The notes below the pieces were generated by a model, which saw only the letters and a list, made by a program, of their open reading frames with translations, was not told where the DNA came from and did no database searches. A stretch of 64,000 bases of DNA from Propionivibrio limicola (GTDB lineage: Bacteria > Pseudomonadota > Gammaproteobacteria > Burkholderiales > Rhodocyclaceae): the NCBI RefSeq assembly GCF_009469695.1, contig NZ_SSSR01000002.1:1-64000 (forward strand). The letters run 5' to 3'. Both the position numbers and the translations under genes were made by a program. Below, in pieces: positions 7,983 to 15,728 of this stretch. How positions within the stretch are numbered: position 1 is the stretch's first letter; each line of letters begins with the position of its first letter.

Positions 7983-8552
7983 TTACTTCGGTGCGCCGAG
8001 CGGCAGCACGATGCGGCCGTAAACTTCGTTCAGCACCTGGGCAACGGCGCAGTAGAGCGCCAGGCTGCCGCAAACGATGCCTTCGTAGCCGGCGATGTGG
8101 GCGATCGCTTCGTTACCGGTGGCTTTTTCGATGGTCAGCAACGCAAAGAGGATGACCAGCGTGCCGAAGATCAGTTGCAGGCAGCGCGAGAGCTTGAAGG
8201 TGCCGATGAACATGAAGAAGCTGAAGATGCCCCAGACGCCGAGGTAGGCGGCGAAGGAGGTGCCGGTTTCCGGCGCAAAGCCCATCTTCGGCAGGGCGAT
8301 CAGACCAACCAGCGTCAGCCAGAAAGCGCCGTAGGAGGTGAAGGCGGTAGCGCCGAAGGTGTTGCCGATTTTCCATTCCTGCACGCCGGCGATCATTTGC
8401 GAGATGCCGCCGAAGAAGATGCCCATGGCCAGGATCGAGCTGGTCAGCGGAAAGAACCCCGCGTTGTGCAAGTTCAGCAGGATGGTGGTCAGACCAAAGC
8501 CGAGAAGGCCGAGAGGTGCGGGATTGGCCGGGTTGCCGGTCGGGTGAGACAT
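7983..8552 (-). CDS. satP: Acetate/succinate uptake transporter, GPR1/FUN34/YaaH family
   Basis: This is a 189-residue membrane protein with six predicted helices and the family signature [11 protein letters not shown] near residues 10-20, which begins the first helix. YaaH/SatP proteins take up acetate and succinate. The length matches the family and there is no truncation. It lies on the same strand as and 151 bp downstream of cowN and has its own terminator. A link to the CO-response genes is not evident. Confidence 0.92.
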
Positions 8553-8703
8553 TGGAACTCCTTGAAAAAATAAAAGGTTAGCGAATATTGCAGGAGGCCG
8601 CTTGGCCGCCGCGCAATAACCACAAATTCAGGAGGGCCGGATTGTACCTGTGAAGTCTCGCCAAGGCCATGATTATTTGCAAAATTTTCTTGTTTTACTG
8701 GCC

Positions 8704-8997
8704 TCAGCAGCACTCTTCTTCCAGCTGGACGAGCAGGCCCTGGGCCTCTTTGTCGCCGGTCTTGTCGAACAGGTCGCGCACCTGGTTGATATGGCAATGG
8801 ATCAGGAACAGGTCGTCCGGTTTGGGGCCGCTGCGCGGCTGGCGCTTCTTCATGAAGTAAGTCCAGAACGGTAGATCATGCTCGACCAGTTGCATGTTCT
8901 TTTCGATCAGTTCCATGACTTTTCGCGCGTTCCCGTCACAGTCGATTCCGTCGAAGGTTTTGTAGCGGTCGGTTTTCTGTTGGCAGCTGCAGCTCAT
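8704..8997 (-). CDS. cowN: N2-fixation-sustaining protein CowN
   Basis: This is a 97-residue protein with the CowN signature: DRYKTFDGIDCDGNARKVM near the N-terminus, then a central PFWTYFMKKR, FLIHCHINQVRDLF and the ending LVQLEEECC. CowN is known from Rhodospirillum rubrum and other diazotrophs as the protein that lets nitrogenase-dependent growth continue in carbon monoxide. The ATG at 8997 follows AAGGAGCC. A TTG 15 bp upstream is excluded because it overlaps that ribosome binding site. It follows a CooA-like CO-sensor gene by 48 bp on the same strand, probably as one operon. No nif gene is in the window. Confidence 0.93.
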   Translation of the reverse strand: MSCSCQQKTDRYKTFDGIDCDGNARKVMELIEKNMQLVEHDLPFWTYFMKKRQPRSGPKPDDLFLIHCHINQVRDLFDKTGDKEAQGLLVQLEEECC

Positions 8998-9045
8998 GGT
9001 GGCTCCTTGCAAATCAAATGGTTCGACGCAGTTTAGGGCAGGCGT

Positions 9046-9771
9046 CTAGCCGAGTCTGTCGGCTGGCCGACAATTCGCGGCATCGCCATCGCCGATGTGT
9101 CGGCTGAGCGCGTCCGGCGCTGGAATGACCAGCGTGCGGCGGCCGCGCCGTGCGAGAAGGCCGTCGCGCTCCCATTGGTTGATCAGCGATGAGACGGTCT
9201 GGCGGGTCGTGCCGAGCAAGCTGGCGATGTCCTCGGTCGAGAGTTCGAGTTCGATCAGCCAGCCTTCGTCGCAAGGCTGGCCGCAGCGGTGAACGCGGCC
9301 GAGCAGGAAGCGGGCGAGGCGCTGCGGTACTTCGCGAAAGGCGAGATCGGCGATGAGATCGACCGAGTTGGAGAGAATCCGGCCGAGCACGCGCATCATG
9401 ACCGGCGTGATCGAGGCGTCGCGTGCCAAACGGTGCGAGAAGCTGGTTGTGTCGGTGACGAAAATGCTGCTCGGCACTACGGCTTGCAGATAGGTCGGCG
9501 TGTGGGTGGTGAAAATCTCGCCCGGTTCGAGAAAGCACAGGGTGAGTTCGCGATTGGTGTCGGTCAGGTAAACACGCAGGCGCCCCGCATGGACGATGAA
9601 CACCTGATCCCGAGTGGCGGACGGGGTGGAGAGTAGCTCTCCCTTGCCCAGCTGGCGAGGCGTAAAACCGCCGGATGGCGGGTTGGCGTGTTGTTGGTGC
9701 AACAGCGAATCGAGCCAGTCGTGCAGGTGCGGCGGTCGTGTGTTGTCGGAGGGGGCGTGCCGTGGGGTCAT
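9046..9771 (-). CDS. cooA: CRP/FNR-family regulator resembling the CO sensor CooA
   Basis: This 241-residue protein has an N-terminal cyclic-nucleotide-like domain with GRLRVYL and NRELTLCFLEPGEIF, a long dimerisation helix and a C-terminal winged helix with STEDIASLLGTTRQTVSS. Compared from memory with R. rubrum CooA, these segments align closely. The ferrous haem ligand His77 corresponds to His90 here (FTTH90). The ferric ligand Cys75 is replaced by Thr88; that cysteine is known not to be universal in CooA proteins. The N-terminus has a proline at position 3 if the ATG at 9771 is the start; an in-frame start 96 bp upstream would add a basic extension. Position directly before cowN supports CO sensing. 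Another haem- or NO-sensing CRP relative is the main alternative. Confidence 0.75.
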   Translation of the reverse strand: MTPRHAPSDNTRPPHLHDWLDSLLHQQHANPPSGGFTPRQLGKGELLSTPSATRDQVFIVHAGRLRVYLTDTNRELTLCFLEPGEIFTTHTPTYLQAVVPSSIFVTDTTSFSHRLARDASITPVMMRVLGRILSNSVDLIADLAFREVPQRLARFLLGRVHRCGQPCDEGWLIELELSTEDIASLLGTTRQTVSSLINQWERDGLLARRGRRTLVIPAPDALSRHIGDGDAANCRPADRLG

Positions 9772-10039
9772 GAGAAACGTGAAGCAAAAACAGCGCCGGT
9801 TTCGGAATTGCCGAGCTGTCAAGGCGCGCCGTTTTTTTGTCGCCCGCTTTTGGCGTGTTTGGGACATTTTTTCTGTGACAGGTGGCGTAGGGAACTGCCG
9901 TCCGTCCGTGGGGTCCTTTTAGCTGGTTCGTGGGCATGTGGCCGTGGCATGCCTGCCGTTTCCGGAACGTTGCGATTGCCTGGGTAGGGCGTTGAGCGTG
10001 CGAGCCAGGTTTTTCCTCGTCGCCTTCTTGGAGCTCCGT
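9772..10039. other. Divergent spacer between the CooA-like gene and moaA
   Basis: This 268-bp region holds the promoters for both directions. I looked for a CooA-type site (TGTCR-N6-YGACA), an FNR box, a sigma-54 promoter and a Moco riboswitch. I found only isolated half-sites (TGTCA at 9817 and TGACA at 9876) with the wrong spacing. Confidence 0.5.
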
Positions 10040-11086
10040 GTGAATGACGCAAATCCGCTGAAGTCCGCCGTAACCGATACCCTGCAGCGACCGTTGCGTG
10101 ACCTGCGCATTTCGGTCACCGACCGCTGCAACCTGCGCTGCACCTACTGCATGCCGCGCGAGGTGTTCGGCAAGGGCTTCATCTTCCTGCAACGCGTCGA
10201 GCTGCTGAGCTTCGAGGAAATCACCCGTCTGGCCCGCTTGGCCATCGATCTTGGCGTACGCAAGATCCGCCTTTCCGGCGGCGAGCCGCTGTTGCGCCAC
10301 GGCGTCGAACGCCTGATCGAGCAACTCGCGGGCTTGCCGACGACGGACGGCCAGCCGCTGGAAATCGCCATGACCACCAACGGCACCTTGCTGGCGAAGA
10401 AGGCGCAGTCGTTGAAGGATGCCGGTCTGACGCGCCTGACCGTCAGCCTCGACGCGTTGAGCGCAGCGACCTTCCGGCGCATGAGCGATTCGACGGCGTC
10501 GGTGGCGCAGGTGCTCGAAGGCATCGCCGCCGCGCAGGCGGTCGGCCTGGCGCCGCTCAAGGTCAATACGGTGGTCAAGCGCAGCGTCAACGAGGGCGAA
10601 ATCCTGCCGCTCGTTCGCCATTTCCGTCACAACGGCGTCATCCTGCGCTTCATCGAATTTATGGACGTTGGTACGACCAATGGCTGGCGACTCGACGATG
10701 TGGTGACGGCGCGGGAAATTCTGAATCGGATCGATCGTGAATACCCGTTGCGGCCGGTCGATCCGAACTACGCCGGCGAAGTGGCCAAACGCTGGTCGTT
10801 CATCGACGGCGGCGGCGAAATCGGCGTTATCGCCTCGGTGACGCAGGCGTTTTGCCACGACTGCAGCCGGATGCGCCTGTCGACCGACGGCAAGCTCTAC
10901 ACCTGCCTGTTCGCCACCGCCGGCAGCGACCTGCGCGGTCCGTTGCGTGGCGGCGAGAGCGACGCGGCCCTGCGCCAGCGGATTGCCGAGGTTTGGGCGA
11001 GGCGCACCGACCGCTATTCGCAGTTGCGTCATGCGGCGACGGTGCAACCCGTGAAGCGTATCGAGATGTCGTATATTGGCGGCTGA
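10040..11086 (+). CDS. moaA: GTP 3',8-cyclase MoaA
   Basis: MoaA is the radical-SAM enzyme that starts molybdenum cofactor synthesis by converting GTP to 3',8-cyclo-GTP. The 348-residue product carries the N-terminal [4Fe-4S] motif CNLRCTYCM, the GGEP-like SGGEPLL, the C-terminal cluster motif [18 protein letters not shown] and the terminal di-glycine SYIGG. The GTG at 10040 has GGAG 6 nt upstream and is preferred over a TTG at 9938, which would add 34 non-conserved residues. It heads the Mo-cofactor operon. Confidence 0.95.
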
Positions 11087-11107
11087 CTTTTCCGAGCGGG
11101 AGCACCC

Positions 11108-11626
11108 TTGAGCCATACGAGTGACAGCAACGACTTGACGCATTTTTCCCTCGCCGGCCGGGCGCGCATGGTCGATGTGTCGGCGAAGCCGGACAGCCAT
11201 CGCGTCGCCATCGCGAGCGGCGTTTTGCGCCTGCGGCCGGCGACGCTGGAGCGCATCCGTGCCGGCACCGTCGCCAAGGGCAACGTGCTGGCGGTGGCCG
11301 ACGTCGCCGCCGTGATGGCCGCCAAACGCACGCCGGAGACGATCCCGATGTGCCACTCGCTGCCTCTGTCCGGGGTGGACGTCCAGTTCGAGGAAATCCT
11401 CGACGCCGACAAGGAGGGCTGCCTCGGCATCCGGGCGACGGTGACCGCCAGTTGCGTCGGCCCGACCGGCGTCGAGATGGAGGCGCTGTGCGCGGTGAGC
11501 GCCGCGCTGCTCACCATCTACGATATGTGCAAGGCGATCGACCGCGGCATGCGCATCGAGAACGTCCAGCTCGAAGAAAAGCGCGGCGGCAAGAGCGGCG
11601 TGTGGTTGCGCGGGGAGTACAAATGA
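11108..11626 (+). CDS. moaC: Cyclic pyranopterin monophosphate synthase MoaC
   Basis: MoaC converts 3',8-cyclo-GTP to cyclic pyranopterin monophosphate, the second step of Mo-cofactor synthesis. The 172-residue protein contains the conserved MVDVSAKPDSHRVA, the active-site segment ETIPMCHSLPLSGVDV, GPTGVEMEAL and DMCKAIDRGM. The start is a TTG supported by GGGAG 5 nt upstream. Its stop overlaps the moaD start (ATGA), which points to translational coupling. Confidence 0.96.
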   Translation: MSHTSDSNDLTHFSLAGRARMVDVSAKPDSHRVAIASGVLRLRPATLERIRAGTVAKGNVLAVADVAAVMAAKRTPETIPMCHSLPLSGVDVQFEEILDADKEGCLGIRATVTASCVGPTGVEMEALCAVSAALLTIYDMCKAIDRGMRIENVQLEEKRGGKSGVWLRGEYK

Positions 11627-11865
11627 TCCGGGTGTTGTTCTTCGGGCCGGTGGCCGATTGCATCGGTGCGCGGCAGATCGAGCTGCCGTATCGTGATGGC
11701 CTGCGCTGGCAGGACGTGCGCAACGAGCTGCAGCCGCGACATCCGGAGGCGTTTGCGCTGGTGTCGATTGTGGCCGTCAACGGCGAGCGTGTGCGCGACG
11801 AGGAAGGGGCGCCGCTGGCCGACGGCGCGGAAGTCGTCTTCATGTCGAGCTTTTCGGGAGGTTGA
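11623..11865 (+). CDS. moaD: Molybdopterin synthase small subunit MoaD
   Basis: This is an 80-residue ubiquitin-like protein beginning MIRVLFFGPVADCIG and ending FMSSFSGG. The terminal di-glycine is the site of thiocarboxylate formation, which donates sulfur to molybdopterin. It starts inside the moaC stop codon (ATGA) and ends one base before the moaE start, so the two synthase subunits are tightly coupled. The length is normal for the family. Confidence 0.95.
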   Translation: MIRVLFFGPVADCIGARQIELPYRDGLRWQDVRNELQPRHPEAFALVSIVAVNGERVRDEEGAPLADGAEVVFMSSFSGG

Positions 11866-11866
11866 A

Positions 11867-12292
11867 ATGGGCGCTGCCGTTCGTCTCCAATTGGAAGATT
11901 TTTCGCAGGACGAGGAAATCCGCGCCCTGCGCGCTACCTCGCAACGCATCGGCGGCATCGCCACTTTTCTCGGCTGCGCGCGCGATTTTTCCGAGGGGCG
12001 CGAAGTGTGCGAGATCGGCTTCGATGCCTACCGCCCGATGGCTCTCGCCGAACTCGAAAAGCTGCGCGCCGAGGCCATCGCCCGCTTTGCCCTGATCGAG
12101 GCGCGTATCGTTCATCGGCTGGGCGCCGTGCGCGCCGGCGATAACATCGTCTTCATTGCCACCGGCGCCGAACACCGCGCCCCGGCGCTCGACGCCTGCC
12201 GCTGGCTGATCGACGAACTCAAGGCGCGCGTACCGATCTGGAAGAAGGAAATCACGCCGAGTGGCGAAGCGTGGGTGACGCCGCATCCATGA
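11867..12292 (+). CDS. moaE: Molybdopterin synthase catalytic subunit MoaE
   Basis: MoaE forms the molybdopterin synthase heterotetramer with MoaD and inserts the dithiolene sulfurs. The 141-residue protein has the family motifs GGIATFLGCARD, the segment IVHRLGAVRAGDNIV, AEHRAPALDACRWLIDELK and VPIWKKE, where the conserved lysine is catalytic. GGGAGG lies just ahead of the ATG. Its stop overlaps the start of the DUF559 gene. Confidence 0.96.
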   Translation: MGAAVRLQLEDFSQDEEIRALRATSQRIGGIATFLGCARDFSEGREVCEIGFDAYRPMALAELEKLRAEAIARFALIEARIVHRLGAVRAGDNIVFIATGAEHRAPALDACRWLIDELKARVPIWKKEITPSGEAWVTPHP

Positions 12293-12825
12293 AAGGGCTG
12301 ACGAATCCGTCAATCGTAGGGAATTCGCTGCAGAAAACGCTGCGTAACCGCATGACAGATGCCGAGCAACGTCTGTGGCACCGTCTGCGCGGCCGCCAGC
12401 TCGCCGGCTGCAAGTTCCGGCGGCAGCATCCGTTTCTCGATTATGTTCTTGATTTCGTTTGTCTCGAAAAGTCGCTGGTTGTCGAGGTCGACGGCGGCCA
12501 GCATCTGGAAAGCGAGAGCGATCGTTTGCGCGATCAGCGGTTAGCCGAAGCTGGGTTGCGCGTGTTGCGCTTCTGGAATCACGAAGTCCTGCAAGAGACC
12601 GATGCGGTACTTGATGTGATTCTGGAAGCGCTGAACGCTGTGCATAACCATTCCTCCCCCTTCAAGGGGGAGGTCAGGAGGGGGATGGGGGCGGATTTCG
12701 GGGCAACGCGCGGCTCATCCTCCGATCAACCCCATTCCCCACCCAGCCGTCCAATCGCAAACGTCGCTGTCGCGACCTTCCCCCTTGAAGGGGGAGGTGT
12801 TGACGCCTCTAAGGTTCGCGCATGA
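12289..12825 (+). CDS. DUF559-domain protein with a repeat-derived C-terminal tail
   Basis: This is a 178-residue protein starting at the ATG that overlaps the moaE stop (ATGA). Residues 5-115 form a DUF559 domain, related in fold to very-short-patch-repair type endonucleases: LRNRMTDAEQRLWHRLR, FRRQHPF..DYVLDFVCLEKSLVVEVDGGQH and LRVLRFWNHEVL are all conserved. The function in cells is unknown. The last 60 residues (from SSPFKGEVRRGMG on) are read through a palindromic repeat and are probably not a conserved part of the protein. The gene sits inside the Mo-cofactor operon without an obvious link to it. Confidence 0.85.
   Translation: MKGLTNPSIVGNSLQKTLRNRMTDAEQRLWHRLRGRQLAGCKFRRQHPFLDYVLDFVCLEKSLVVEVDGGQHLESESDRLRDQRLAEAGLRVLRFWNHEVLQETDAVLDVILEALNAVHNHSSPFKGEVRRGMGADFGATRGSSSDQPHSPPSRPIANVAVATFPLEGGGVDASKVRA
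12653..12797. repeat. Pair of CCCCCTTCAAGGGGG palindromes in inverted arrangement
   Basis: Two near-identical palindromes, CCTCCCCCTTCAAGGGGGAGG (12653-12673) and its variant at 12776-12797, flank a spacer. The GGAGGGGGATGGGG next to the left copy is matched in inverse by CCCCATTCCCCACCC near the right copy. This looks like a REP/BIME-type intergenic element. It overlaps the 3' third of the DUF559 gene. Confidence 0.85.
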
Positions 12826-13319
12826 CACCGCCCGTCTTCATCTTTGTCGGCCACTCCAATGCTGGTAAAACGACTTTCGTCGAGAAGCTCATTCCGGAAT
12901 TGACCGGGCGCGGCGTCAACGTGGCGACGATCAAGCATGCGCACCACAAGGTTGCCCTCGACACCGAGGGCAAGGACAGCTGGCGTCACAAGCAGGCGGG
13001 TGCGGCGATGAGCATGCTGGTGACGACCACCGCGCTGCAGCTGGTCGCCGATGCCGTCGACCGGCGCGAGCCGCAGCAACTGGCCGAACGATTCCTCGGC
13101 GAAGCCGACCTTGTGCTGGCCGAGGGCTTCTCGCAGGCGGCGGGGCCGAAGATCGAGGTGTTGCGCCGCGCCTGCGCCAAGCCACCGCGGTGCACGTTGG
13201 CGGACGGGCTGATCGCCCTCTTCACCGATTGTGCCGAGGTCTATCCGGAATTGCCGCATTTCGCGCTCGACGATGTGGCCGGGCTGGCCGATTTTCTGCT
13301 CCACTATAGGCAGCCATGA
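12822..13319 (+). CDS. mobB: Molybdopterin-guanine dinucleotide biosynthesis adaptor MobB
   Basis: This is a 165-residue GTP-binding protein with P-loop GHSNAGKTTF and the segment VATIKHAHH. It ends with DDVAGLADFL. MobB assists MobA in attaching GMP to molybdopterin, giving the bis-MGD cofactor needed by DMSO-reductase family enzymes such as NasA. It overlaps the end of the DUF559 gene by 4 bp and the start of mobA by 4 bp. Confidence 0.94.
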   Translation: MTPPVFIFVGHSNAGKTTFVEKLIPELTGRGVNVATIKHAHHKVALDTEGKDSWRHKQAGAAMSMLVTTTALQLVADAVDRREPQQLAERFLGEADLVLAEGFSQAAGPKIEVLRRACAKPPRCTLADGLIALFTDCAEVYPELPHFALDDVAGLADFLLHYRQP

Positions 13320-13915
13320 TTGAAGACTGCACGGCGCTGATCCTCGCCGGCGGCGATTCGCGCCGCATGGGATTCGACAAGACGGCGCTGACATTGGACG
13401 GGCAGACCTTGCTGCAACGCGCCATTGAGCGCATGCAGGCGGTGTTTCCTCGGGTGCTGGTCAGCGTGCGCCAGCCGCGTGCCGACGTCGACGTGCCGCA
13501 GGTGTTCGACGCATTCCCCGACGCCGGGCCGTTGGCCGGCTTGTGTGCCGGGCTTGCTGAAGCAAAAACCGGCTGGGTCTTCGCCGTGGCCGCCGACATG
13601 CCTTTCGTGAGTCCGGCGCTGGTCGAACAACTGGCGGCGCGGCGCGAGGGCTTTGAGGCGGTTGTGCCGGTTGTAGGTGGTTGTCCGCAGCCGCTGGCCG
13701 CGTTTTATGCGGTGGCGGCGTTGCCTTCGCTCCGCGCGACGCTGGCCGGGCCGGGCAAGCACAGTCTGCGCGCGGCGCTGGAACGGTTGCTCGTTTGCCG
13801 TGTCGATGAAAAAAGCCTGCTGGCGGCCGATCCGGAACTCGCCAGCTTTGTCGACCTCGATACGCCGGCCGATGTGGCCGTGGCGAGGAACAATCAGCGA
13901 AAGGAAATTCTTTGA
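13316..13915 (+). CDS. mobA: Molybdenum cofactor guanylyltransferase MobA
   Basis: MobA transfers GMP from GTP to molybdopterin. The 199-residue product has the nucleotidyltransferase signature LILAGGDSRRMGFDKTAL, the metal-binding AADMPFVSP and the late PQPLAAFY. The start ATGA overlaps the mobB stop, and its own stop overlaps the moeA start. Together with mobB it shows that the cofactor made here is MGD, in line with the neighbouring assimilatory nitrate reductase. Confidence 0.95.
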   Translation: MIEDCTALILAGGDSRRMGFDKTALTLDGQTLLQRAIERMQAVFPRVLVSVRQPRADVDVPQVFDAFPDAGPLAGLCAGLAEAKTGWVFAVAADMPFVSPALVEQLAARREGFEAVVPVVGGCPQPLAAFYAVAALPSLRATLAGPGKHSLRAALERLLVCRVDEKSLLAADPELASFVDLDTPADVAVARNNQRKEIL

Positions 13916-15186
13916 GCGCAATGACCCATAAGACGAATCTTTCCGTGGGGGCGGCGCAGACCTGCGTCCTGCAGCACGTATCGCCGCTCGGTGCCGAGGA
14001 GGTGCCGCTCGAGCGCTCGCTCGGCCGCGTGCTGGCCGGGGACGTGCGCGCCAACCGCGATCTGCCACCGTGCGACGTGTCGGCGATGGACGGTTTCGCC
14101 GTGCGCAGCGCCGATCTGGCCGCGGGGGCGGTCGCCCTGACGGTGATCGAAGACATCAAGGCCGGCGATCGGCCACAGCTCGCCGTGCAATCCGGTCAGT
14201 GCGCGCGCATCATGACCGGCGCACCGGTGCCGGTCGGCGCCGATGCGGTGATTCGCGTCGAGGATTCGCGTCCGCTGGCCGATGGCCGTGTCGAGTTCGC
14301 TTCCTTGGTGAAGGCCGGTAACGACATCCGCGTGCGCGGCGAAAACATGCGCGAGGGCGACGTGGTGCTGGCGGCGGGAACGGAAATCACGCCGGGCGTT
14401 GTCGGCGTGCTGGCGACGGTCAAGCGCGCCCGGGTGAAGGTCGTCCGACGGCCGCGCGTCGCTATCCTGTCGAGCGGCGATGAACTGGAGGCGCTCGATG
14501 CGCCGTTCGACCCGGATAGGATTCCAGACTCGAACAGCTATGCACTGATGGCGCAGGTGCAGGCGCTCGGCATCGAGCCGGTGCGGCTCGGCATCGCCCG
14601 CGACGATCCCGACGAACTGGCCTCCTTTCTCCGGCGCGGCCTGAATCCGGCCGATTTCGAAGTGCTTCTGGTCTCAGGCGGCACCTCGGTCGGCGTGCAC
14701 GATCATGTCCGGCCGACCTTGGAAAAACTTGGCGTGACGATGCATTTCTGGCGCGTCGAAATGAAGCCGGGGCATCCGGTCGCCTTTGGCACCACCGAGC
14801 GGGGATGGGTGTTCGGACTGCCGGGCAATCCGGTGTCGAGCATGGTCTGCTTCGAGCAGTTCGTCGCACCGGTACTGCGGCGCTTGATGGGGCAGGCGCG
14901 GCTGTTCCGCCGCACCATTGCTGCGCGTCTCGCGCATCCGCTCAAGACACGGCCGGGGCGCACCGAATTCATCCGCGTGACGCTGACCCCCGACACGGTG
15001 GGCGGCTACGTGGCGGCTTCGACTGGCTCGCAGAGCAGCGGCGATTTGCTGTCGATGGCGCGCGCCGATGCCTTGCTGGTCGTGCCCGACGACTGCGCCG
15101 GCCTTGCCGCCGGCGATGTGGTGCAGGTGCAACTGCTCGACGGCACCGCGTTTCAGAATCTTTCAGGTTTTACGGAGGACGCATGA
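13912..15186 (+). CDS. moeA: Molybdopterin molybdenumtransferase MoeA
   Basis: MoeA inserts molybdate into adenylated molybdopterin. The 424-residue protein contains the early segment DVSAMDGFAVR, TGAPVPVGADAVIRVE, the MoCF-binding motif LVSGGTSVGVHDHV, and AFGTTERGWVFGLPGNPVS. I chose the TTG at 13912, which overlaps the mobA stop (TTGA), because AAGGA lies 6 nt upstream. An ATG at 13921 is a possible alternative but is 15 nt from that site. Confidence 0.95.
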   Translation: MSAMTHKTNLSVGAAQTCVLQHVSPLGAEEVPLERSLGRVLAGDVRANRDLPPCDVSAMDGFAVRSADLAAGAVALTVIEDIKAGDRPQLAVQSGQCARIMTGAPVPVGADAVIRVEDSRPLADGRVEFASLVKAGNDIRVRGENMREGDVVLAAGTEITPGVVGVLATVKRARVKVVRRPRVAILSSGDELEALDAPFDPDRIPDSNSYALMAQVQALGIEPVRLGIARDDPDELASFLRRGLNPADFEVLLVSGGTSVGVHDHVRPTLEKLGVTMHFWRVEMKPGHPVAFGTTERGWVFGLPGNPVSSMVCFEQFVAPVLRRLMGQARLFRRTIAARLAHPLKTRPGRTEFIRVTLTPDTVGGYVAASTGSQSSGDLLSMARADALLVVPDDCAGLAAGDVVQVQLLDGTAFQNLSGFTEDA

Positions 15187-15728
15187 AGACCGCACGTATC
15201 GGCATCCTGACCATTTCCGACCGCGCCAGCCAGGGCGTCTATGAAGACAAGGGCGGTCCGGCAATCCGCGACTGGCTGGCGCAGGCGCTCGTCAGCCCGT
15301 GGGTCGCGGTGGCGCGGGTGATTCCCGACGAACAACCGTTGATCGAAGCGGCGCTGATCGACATGGCCGACGTCGAAGGCTGCAGTCTGATCGTGACCAC
15401 CGGCGGCACCGGCCCCGCCTTGCGTGACGTGACGCCGGAAGCGACCGAGGCGGTATGCACGAAAATGCTGCCCGGCTTCGGCGAGCTGATGCGCTCGGCG
15501 TCGCTGAAGTTCGTTCCGACGGCGATCCTCTCGCGCCAGACGGCCGGGGTGCGCGGCCGGAGTCTAATCGTCAATCTGCCCGGTAAGCCATCGGCCATCG
15601 ACGACTGCCTGCAAGCCGCTTTTCCGGCCATTCCCTACTGTATCGATCTGATCGAAGGCGCGTATCTCGAAAGCAACGACGCCTTTTGCCAGGCCTTCCG
15701 GCCGGCGCATGCCAAGGCCAAGGGGTAG
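15183..15728 (+). CDS. mogA: Molybdopterin adenylyltransferase MogA
   Basis: MogA adenylates molybdopterin before MoeA inserts molybdenum. The 181-residue protein begins MKTARIGILTISDRASQGVYEDKGG and contains the active-site motif IVTTGGTGPALRDVTPEAT followed by VRGRSLIVNLPGKP, all diagnostic for MogA. The ATG overlaps the moeA stop, so the two enzymes that act in series are translationally coupled. Confidence 0.95.
   Translation: MKTARIGILTISDRASQGVYEDKGGPAIRDWLAQALVSPWVAVARVIPDEQPLIEAALIDMADVEGCSLIVTTGGTGPALRDVTPEATEAVCTKMLPGFGELMRSASLKFVPTAILSRQTAGVRGRSLIVNLPGKPSAIDDCLQAAFPAIPYCIDLIEGAYLESNDAFCQAFRPAHAKAKG

Follow-up and report, generated by a model that had tools for sequence, protein, structure and literature searches.

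Within the 64,000-nucleotide stretch analysed here (the window), cooA and cowN of Propionivibrio limicola very probably constitute a CO-protection module for the molybdenum nitrogenase, in which CO-bound haem CooA would activate cowN by a class II mechanism. The CooA dimer would hold its haem on H90, as suggested by its family and by the residue itself. Once bound to CO, it would dock on a predicted operator at 9057–9072, within the 3′ end of cooA itself, and, judging from the conserved promoter anatomy, recruit sigma-70 RNA polymerase in a class II arrangement at −41.5 to transcribe cowN. CowN would then protect nitrogenase and let it work under CO; CowN is described as supporting nitrogenase under CO in Gluconacetobacter (PMC8047169). 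We consider it moderately probable that NifA and sigma-54 transcribe cooA during nitrogen fixation, from a start near the ATG that gives a leaderless mRNA. The two inputs would act in series, nitrogen fixation making the sensor and CO then making the shield. The elements on which this reading relies are the following:

8704–8997, minus strand: cowN, 97 amino acids, N2-fixation sustaining protein
9003–9008, minus strand: Shine–Dalgarno AAGGAG of cowN, read from the sequence
9030–9035, minus strand: predicted −10 box TAAACT of the cowN promoter, at a conserved place
9053–9058, minus strand: putative, weak −35-like element CAGACT, 17 bp upstream of the −10 box and overlapping the edge of the operator
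9057–9072, no strand assigned: predicted CooA operator TGTCGGCTGGCCGACA, a perfect TGTCG-N6-CGACA wholly inside the cooA coding sequence
9046–9771, minus strand: cooA, 241 amino acids, ATG at 9771, predicted CooA-type CO sensor of the CRP/FNR family
9783–9798, minus strand: sigma-54 −24/−12-like element CGGCGCTGTTTTTGCT, 9/12
9851–9866, minus strand: weak palindrome TGTCCCAAACACGCCA, 8/10, centred at −86 from the predicted cooA start

Identity of the regulator and its linkage to cowN

The original prediction described a CooA-like regulator 48 bp ahead of cowN on the same strand. The gene coordinates agree with this arrangement, and the closest solved structures bear out the assignment. These were ChCooA (2fmy, E = 7.6e-38), which we take to be the CooA of Carboxydothermus, and RrCooA (1ft9, E = 1.3e-29), with 2hkx likewise among the best matches; the first match not named CooA was 7ets (E = 1.5e-14). 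The regulator scored 67 bits with HTH_Crp_2 and 26.4 bits with cNMP_binding, just under the cut-off of 27.5, matched no NCBIfam CooA model and stayed far under the cut-offs of the general CRP/FNR models. The haem histidine of its FTTH motif is residue 90, equivalent to His77, the Fe(II) haem ligand. It was conserved in 9/9 rows of the first alignment and in 80/80 cowN-linked and 21/21 other CooA sequences, and its equivalent was absent from the two outgroup proteins checked. Cys75, the Fe(III) haem ligand known from R. rubrum CooA, is not a defining residue of CooA, and its equivalent in the window protein is Thr88. At this position, the cowN-linked sequences have S (41), T (33), A (3), C (2) or V (1), the other CooA sequences have S (19), T (1) or A (1), and RrCooA and ChCooA have C. 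The distal haem ligand of CooA is the N-terminal residue of the partner subunit, a position at which the N-termini of our sequences were too variable for alignment.

A phylogeny had been named beforehand as a test that could overturn the assignment. The tree was of a quick kind, with E. coli CRP, E. coli FNR, a CRP/FNR paralogue from the host genome and a CRP/FNR-family protein of genome G030 as outgroups, DNR and HcpR being left out. All CooA sequences, including that of the window, fell on one side of a branch with support 97 and the outgroups on the other; the root is unsure because the outgroup branches are long. The window CooA sits in a group of 33, supported at 93, whose other members come from Dechloromonas, Azonexus, Thiobaca and Rubrivivax among others and in which its nearest partner is unsure and all members except L073 are cowN-linked. 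RrCooA and ChCooA share with it the fold, the His77 equivalent and the RQT.S recognition helix. Unlike the window CooA, they control CO dehydrogenase operons (for R. rubrum, PMC4257681) and belong to a group of 20 (support 96) of CooA proteins from Geobacteraceae, Desulfuromonas, Desulfovibrionaceae, Desulfobacula, Photobacterium, Ferrimonas and Shewanella, in whose fetched stretches cowN was not found. Taking structural relatives, H90 and tree position together, we conclude that the regulator at 9046–9771 is a CooA.

CowN exceeded both profile cut-offs (NF033689, 110.8 bits against 48; PF20543, 119.8 against 27) and is the single CowN of the host genome, which measures 3.1 Mb and is 98% complete. 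This genome also encodes nifD (846.6 bits, cut-off 653.55) and NifA (653.7 bits, cut-off 528.85). Two weaker nifD-profile matches in the same cluster are probably nifE and nifK, and no further nifD-profile match in the genome suggested a second nitrogenase. The lack of CO dehydrogenase genes, first remarked upon for the immediate neighbourhood, extends to the whole genome, in which the sole CooS match scored 22.4 bits (cut-off 478) and a search with PF20256 (MoCoBD_2) for CoxL-type enzymes gave no match. The proposal that the module serves nitrogenase and not CO oxidation fits this gene content, with nifD and NifA present and CO dehydrogenase not found. The accompanying statement that cowN is controlled by CooA in R. 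rubrum needs care, since in the available part of the source rcoM adjoins cowN there and cooA sits with CO oxidation genes (PMC4257681).

We surveyed 199 genomes of the host family, its own included, using a threshold of E 1e-15 for CooA-like matches. CowN was present in 33 and a CooA-like match in 22; nifD matches, found in 93/199 overall (above the cut-off in 82), extended to all 33 CowN genomes. CowN lay on the same contig as the CooA-like match in 21 of the 22 cases, immediately adjacent and on the same strand in 20 and about 2.7 kb away in G115; the 22nd match, in G030 (63 bits), had no CowN and lacked the haem histidine. A CooA-like match was absent from 12 of the 33 CowN genomes. Among the best 80 of 142 CooA loci, CowN was found downstream of CooA on the same strand in 59 (close by in 57, at 1.2 and 2.6 kb in two) and was undetected by profile in the fetched stretch, some of these being short, in 21. 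CooS exceeded the cut-off in 17 of the 49 genomes searched from these 80 loci, namely in 6/34 with a cowN-linked CooA versus 11/15 without. No CooS passed the cut-off in the other 28 of the 34, one of them, G210, falling narrowly short (470.9 bits against 478), and the four of the 15 genomes that had neither a cowN-linked CooA nor CooS over the cut-off were Shewanella.

Molybdenum cofactor genes occupy 9938–15200 of the window, divergent from cooA and beginning with moaA, followed by more moa/mob/moe/mog-like reading frames judged by eye, and an acetate uptake transporter of the SatP/YaaH type (7983–8552, minus strand) follows cowN. MoaA and SatP were considered as conserved neighbours and rejected: MoaA had no match in the best 80 of 142 CooA loci at E 1e-20, and SatP was found only in three Ferrimonas loci of the same set at the same threshold.

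Operator and promoter of cowN

In cooA the predicted operator encodes C-R-P-A-D and supplies the first base of the codon that follows, and its centre lies 67 bp from the cowN ATG. The −10 box TAAACT places this centre at −41.5, which is the class II activation distance for CRP, and puts the predicted cowN transcript start near 9023. The −35-like element most commonly takes the form CRGAC in relatives.

We parsed 79 cooA–cowN loci (the 59 from the best 80 of 142, the window and 19 family loci; L050 of G115 was left out). These comprised 67 unique sequences (64 without L084, L104 and L107), since some family loci appear to come from the same species as loci among the 59. All 79 carried an operator-like site matching at least 8 of 10 positions (10 loci at 10, 47 at 9 and 22 at 8), and GTC-N8-GAC was kept in every one of them. 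The 64 unique sequences gave the consensus YGTCGGCYRGCYGACRGAC, with a TA-rich hexamer further on, at position 38. We scanned the 200 bp preceding the start of the CowN profile in 60 loci (the 59 from the best 80 of 142 and the window). A site of at least 8/10 was found in 59 of them, where 50 dinucleotide shuffles gave 5.4 on average and 10 at most, and one of at least 9/10 in 38, where dinucleotide shuffles gave 0.36. A −10-like hexamer (at least 4/6 of TATAAT at position 38 or 39) was present in 70/79 loci; 200 shuffles gave 2.0 on average and never more than 6. Fifteen CowN genes that have no CooA linked to them served as controls: none had a site of at least 9 within 200 bp, six had an 8/10 site in that interval at scattered positions, and two reached 9 within 400 bp.

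Genome-wide, TGTCGGC-N2-GCCGACA with at most one mismatch occurred only before cowN, compared with three hits for a reversed control pattern. In the window, TGTCG-N6-CGACA with one mismatch was found twice versus 3.0 expected and was thus not enriched. A wider CooA regulon was considered and rejected, the looser TGTCG-N6-YGACA having four other sites in the genome, about the level of the reversed control.

With respect to the cooA stop codon, the operator lies after it in 41 of the 79 loci and contains it in 28. In the remaining 10 the whole operator falls within the coding sequence; these include L084, which is mis-parsed at the cooA end and is still included in the operator and −10 counts. 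Where operator and gene overlap, all three cooA frames are used, in 12, 25 (L084 among them) and 1 loci, the single case being the window; it is therefore the DNA, and not the protein, that is conserved. The operator centre is 62–73 bp from the cowN start in 65/79 loci, and the rest have 77–105 bp, mis-called starts or, in L074, 244 bp. The distance from operator to cowN start had a standard deviation of 7.3 over 71 loci (excluding L042, L044, L048, L059, L074, L084, L092 and L112), versus 17.5 for the distance from operator to cooA stop, and the relation of operator to stop requires at least 10 changes on the tree (L084 dropped). We read these patterns as selection for a DNA element linked to cowN. 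The LSAG-stop and VG-stop tails of CooA are readings of the same operator DNA, so that the embedded operator would explain these recurrent, otherwise puzzling tails as a DNA constraint.

The 48-bp gap and shared strand would also suit a simple bicistronic operon, in which cowN depends chiefly on read-through transcription that starts at the cooA promoter, the internal operator playing a minor part. We regard this as very unlikely, however, as relatives keep the operator, the −10 box and their spacing ahead of cowN even as the cooA stop shifts across them, and as L059 and L112, with cowN 1.2 and 2.6 kb from cooA, keep a 9/10 site centred 64 and 69 bp before the cowN start. It is likewise highly improbable that the regulator is a CooA-descended haem protein that senses something else, such as NO or redox state, or that it has lost its haem. 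NO sensors do exist in the DNR/HcpR lineages related to CooA, and the Cys75 equivalent is a threonine here, but H90 is present in 101/101 CooA sequences, set against its absence from the outgroup proteins, and the close partner of the gene is cowN, whose known job is CO tolerance.

Finally, the site at 9057–9072 might be a NifA upstream site (TGT-N10-ACA) in place of a CooA operator, a reading that we likewise consider very unlikely. Every TGTCG-N6-CGACA also fits TGT-N10-ACA, an overlap that has been noted in G. diazotrophicus as well (PMC8047169). Against this, TGT-N10-ACA is broken in relatives, in which the last base is G in 32/64 and the first base C in 16/64 unique sequences, whereas GTC-N8-GAC holds throughout; a sigma-70-like −10 box stands at a fixed place, and high-scoring sites are missing from the 200 bp before CowN genes without a linked CooA.

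Promoter of cooA and the predicted start of its mRNA

The −12 C of the sigma-54-like element is at 9784, 13 nt before the cooA ATG. The predicted start at 9772 adjoins the ATG, and cooA is therefore predicted to be leaderless. An element of at least 9/12 within 250 bp upstream of cooA was found in 40/79 loci. The expectation was 7.3, with at most 14 in any of 100 simulations, and 2/58 coding controls had such an element. When we considered elements of at least 8 within 60 nt of an in-frame ATG, 47/101 loci had one; the −12 C was 13–15 nt from the ATG in 27 of these 47, and the other distances scattered from 20 to 59. Adding four loci on inspection (L071, L073, L074 and L075), in which the automatic pass had chosen a later ATG, the predicted start lies 1–3 nt before the ATG in 31/101. 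A Shine–Dalgarno core preceded cooA in 0/27 of the leaderless loci tested (22/24 for cowN), the ATG was the only possible start in 10/31, and the trait requires three changes on the tree. The simplest reading of these sequence patterns is a cooA mRNA that starts 1–3 nt before the ATG and is leaderless. In the window the start is less certain than in relatives, because the reading frame is open further upstream; its sigma-54 element (9/12) and palindrome (8/10) are weak taken alone, and cooA could be made from another promoter. Leaderless mRNAs have been described in proteobacteria, with 171 listed in Sinorhizobium meliloti (PMC3616915). A predicted leaderless sigma-54 start that is kept across many species would be well suited to testing how such mRNAs are translated during nitrogen fixation.

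Palindromes like that at 9851–9866 (at least 8/10) were found 63–98 bp upstream of the predicted start in 26/31 leaderless loci, mostly near −76 or −84. Upstream sites of at least 9 occurred in 23/79 loci, compared with 1.0 in mono-nucleotide shuffles, and in none of 20 CooA genes without cowN or 58 coding controls. The exact NifA upstream site, TGT-N10-ACA, was present in 7/31 leaderless loci, the window not being among them. The palindrome could be a candidate NifA or CooA site, which is weak alone and supported by its position in relatives; NifA is the more likely of the two because the promoter is of the sigma-54 type.

A version of the module that limits itself by its geometry seems to us unlikely. 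Here the operator, placed on or next to the stop codon or final codons of cooA, would let CooA with bound CO switch on cowN and at the same time keep RNA polymerase from completing the leaderless sigma-54 cooA mRNA. The blocked cooA mRNAs would have no stop codon and would be cleared by trans-translation. If true, CO would lower CooA synthesis while raising CowN, and the operator hugging the cooA stop in lineage after lineage would be explained.

Known cooA–cowN systems and related loci

The pairing of cooA with cowN without CO dehydrogenase, and the control of cowN by CooA, are already known. In the algH-cooA-cowN arrangement of Gluconacetobacter diazotrophicus, cooA adjoins cowN, a CooA site (tGTCg-N6-tGACa) lies 60 bp before cowN, and cooA is predicted to depend on RpoN (PMC8047169), features similar to those seen in or predicted for the window. 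The two-input series logic proposed here would match what is printed for that species; the available part of its description is silent on the site relative to the cooA stop and on the cooA start (PMC8047169). Its locus includes algH, and our scan of window neighbours covered SatP, OsmC and MoaA. Rubrivivax gelatinosus and R. benzoatilyticus likewise have adjacent cooA and cowN, and R. gelatinosus IL144 and R. benzoatilyticus have, like our host, no anaerobic CO oxidation genes; R. gelatinosus CBS, unlike the window, additionally carries a cluster for CO oxidation together with RcoM, as far as the accessible portion of the report describes (PMC4257681). Other R. gelatinosus strains (L084, L088) and R. 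benzoatilyticus JA2 (L090) fall within the tree group of 33 that holds the window CooA. For the cooA-cowN pair of Rhodobacter capsulatus, Hoffmann et al. reportedly found in 2014 that NifA activates cooA and CooA activates cowN directly, in agreement with the series logic proposed here; that organism is said to have an Fe-nitrogenase as well.

What appears to be new here is the predicted promoter anatomy, with the operator in the cooA end read in three frames and a leaderless sigma-54 cooA. The literature searched, in part available as excerpts, held no account of an embedded operator or a leaderless cooA; an earlier mention is possible. The analysis supports the view that many diazotroph CooA proteins serve nitrogenase protection rather than CO oxidation.

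Several loci depart from the common arrangement. In Azotobacter beijerinckii (L098), cooA, ending near 8702, and the operator TGTCGGCGGGCTGACA are kept, no cowN is detectable next to cooA, and a tRNA-Met gene follows (8923–8999), so cowN has likely been lost there. Azomonas macrocytogenes (L102) and an Azovibrio metagenome-assembled genome (L073) have a CooA from cowN-linked groups, with neither cowN nor operator detectable just downstream; L102 too has a tRNA-Met gene downstream of cooA. A tblastn search with A. vinelandii CowN gave no convincing match in L073, L098 or L102. The Shewanella loci L114, L116, L117 and L121 have CooA, no CooS above the cut-off and no cowN in the fetched stretch, and the next long reading frame in L116 encodes a 4Fe-4S protein (Fer4_5); another CO-responsive function is possible for these CooA proteins. 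A perfect TGTCG-N6-CGACA at G000:C11:96502-96517 (L161), one of the four other genomic sites mentioned above, lies 62 bp before a SIR2-like gene and about 1 kb from a nifH-like reading frame; it is possibly a NifA or CooA site, such matches being near chance level genome-wide. Eight of nine CowN genes without a linked CooA (L142–L144, L149 and L152–L156) lie within about 5 kb of nifD. Three genomes (G011, G109 and G156) have one CooA-linked and one unlinked CowN, the unlinked copy of G109 not being near nifD, which suggests two modes of CowN expression.
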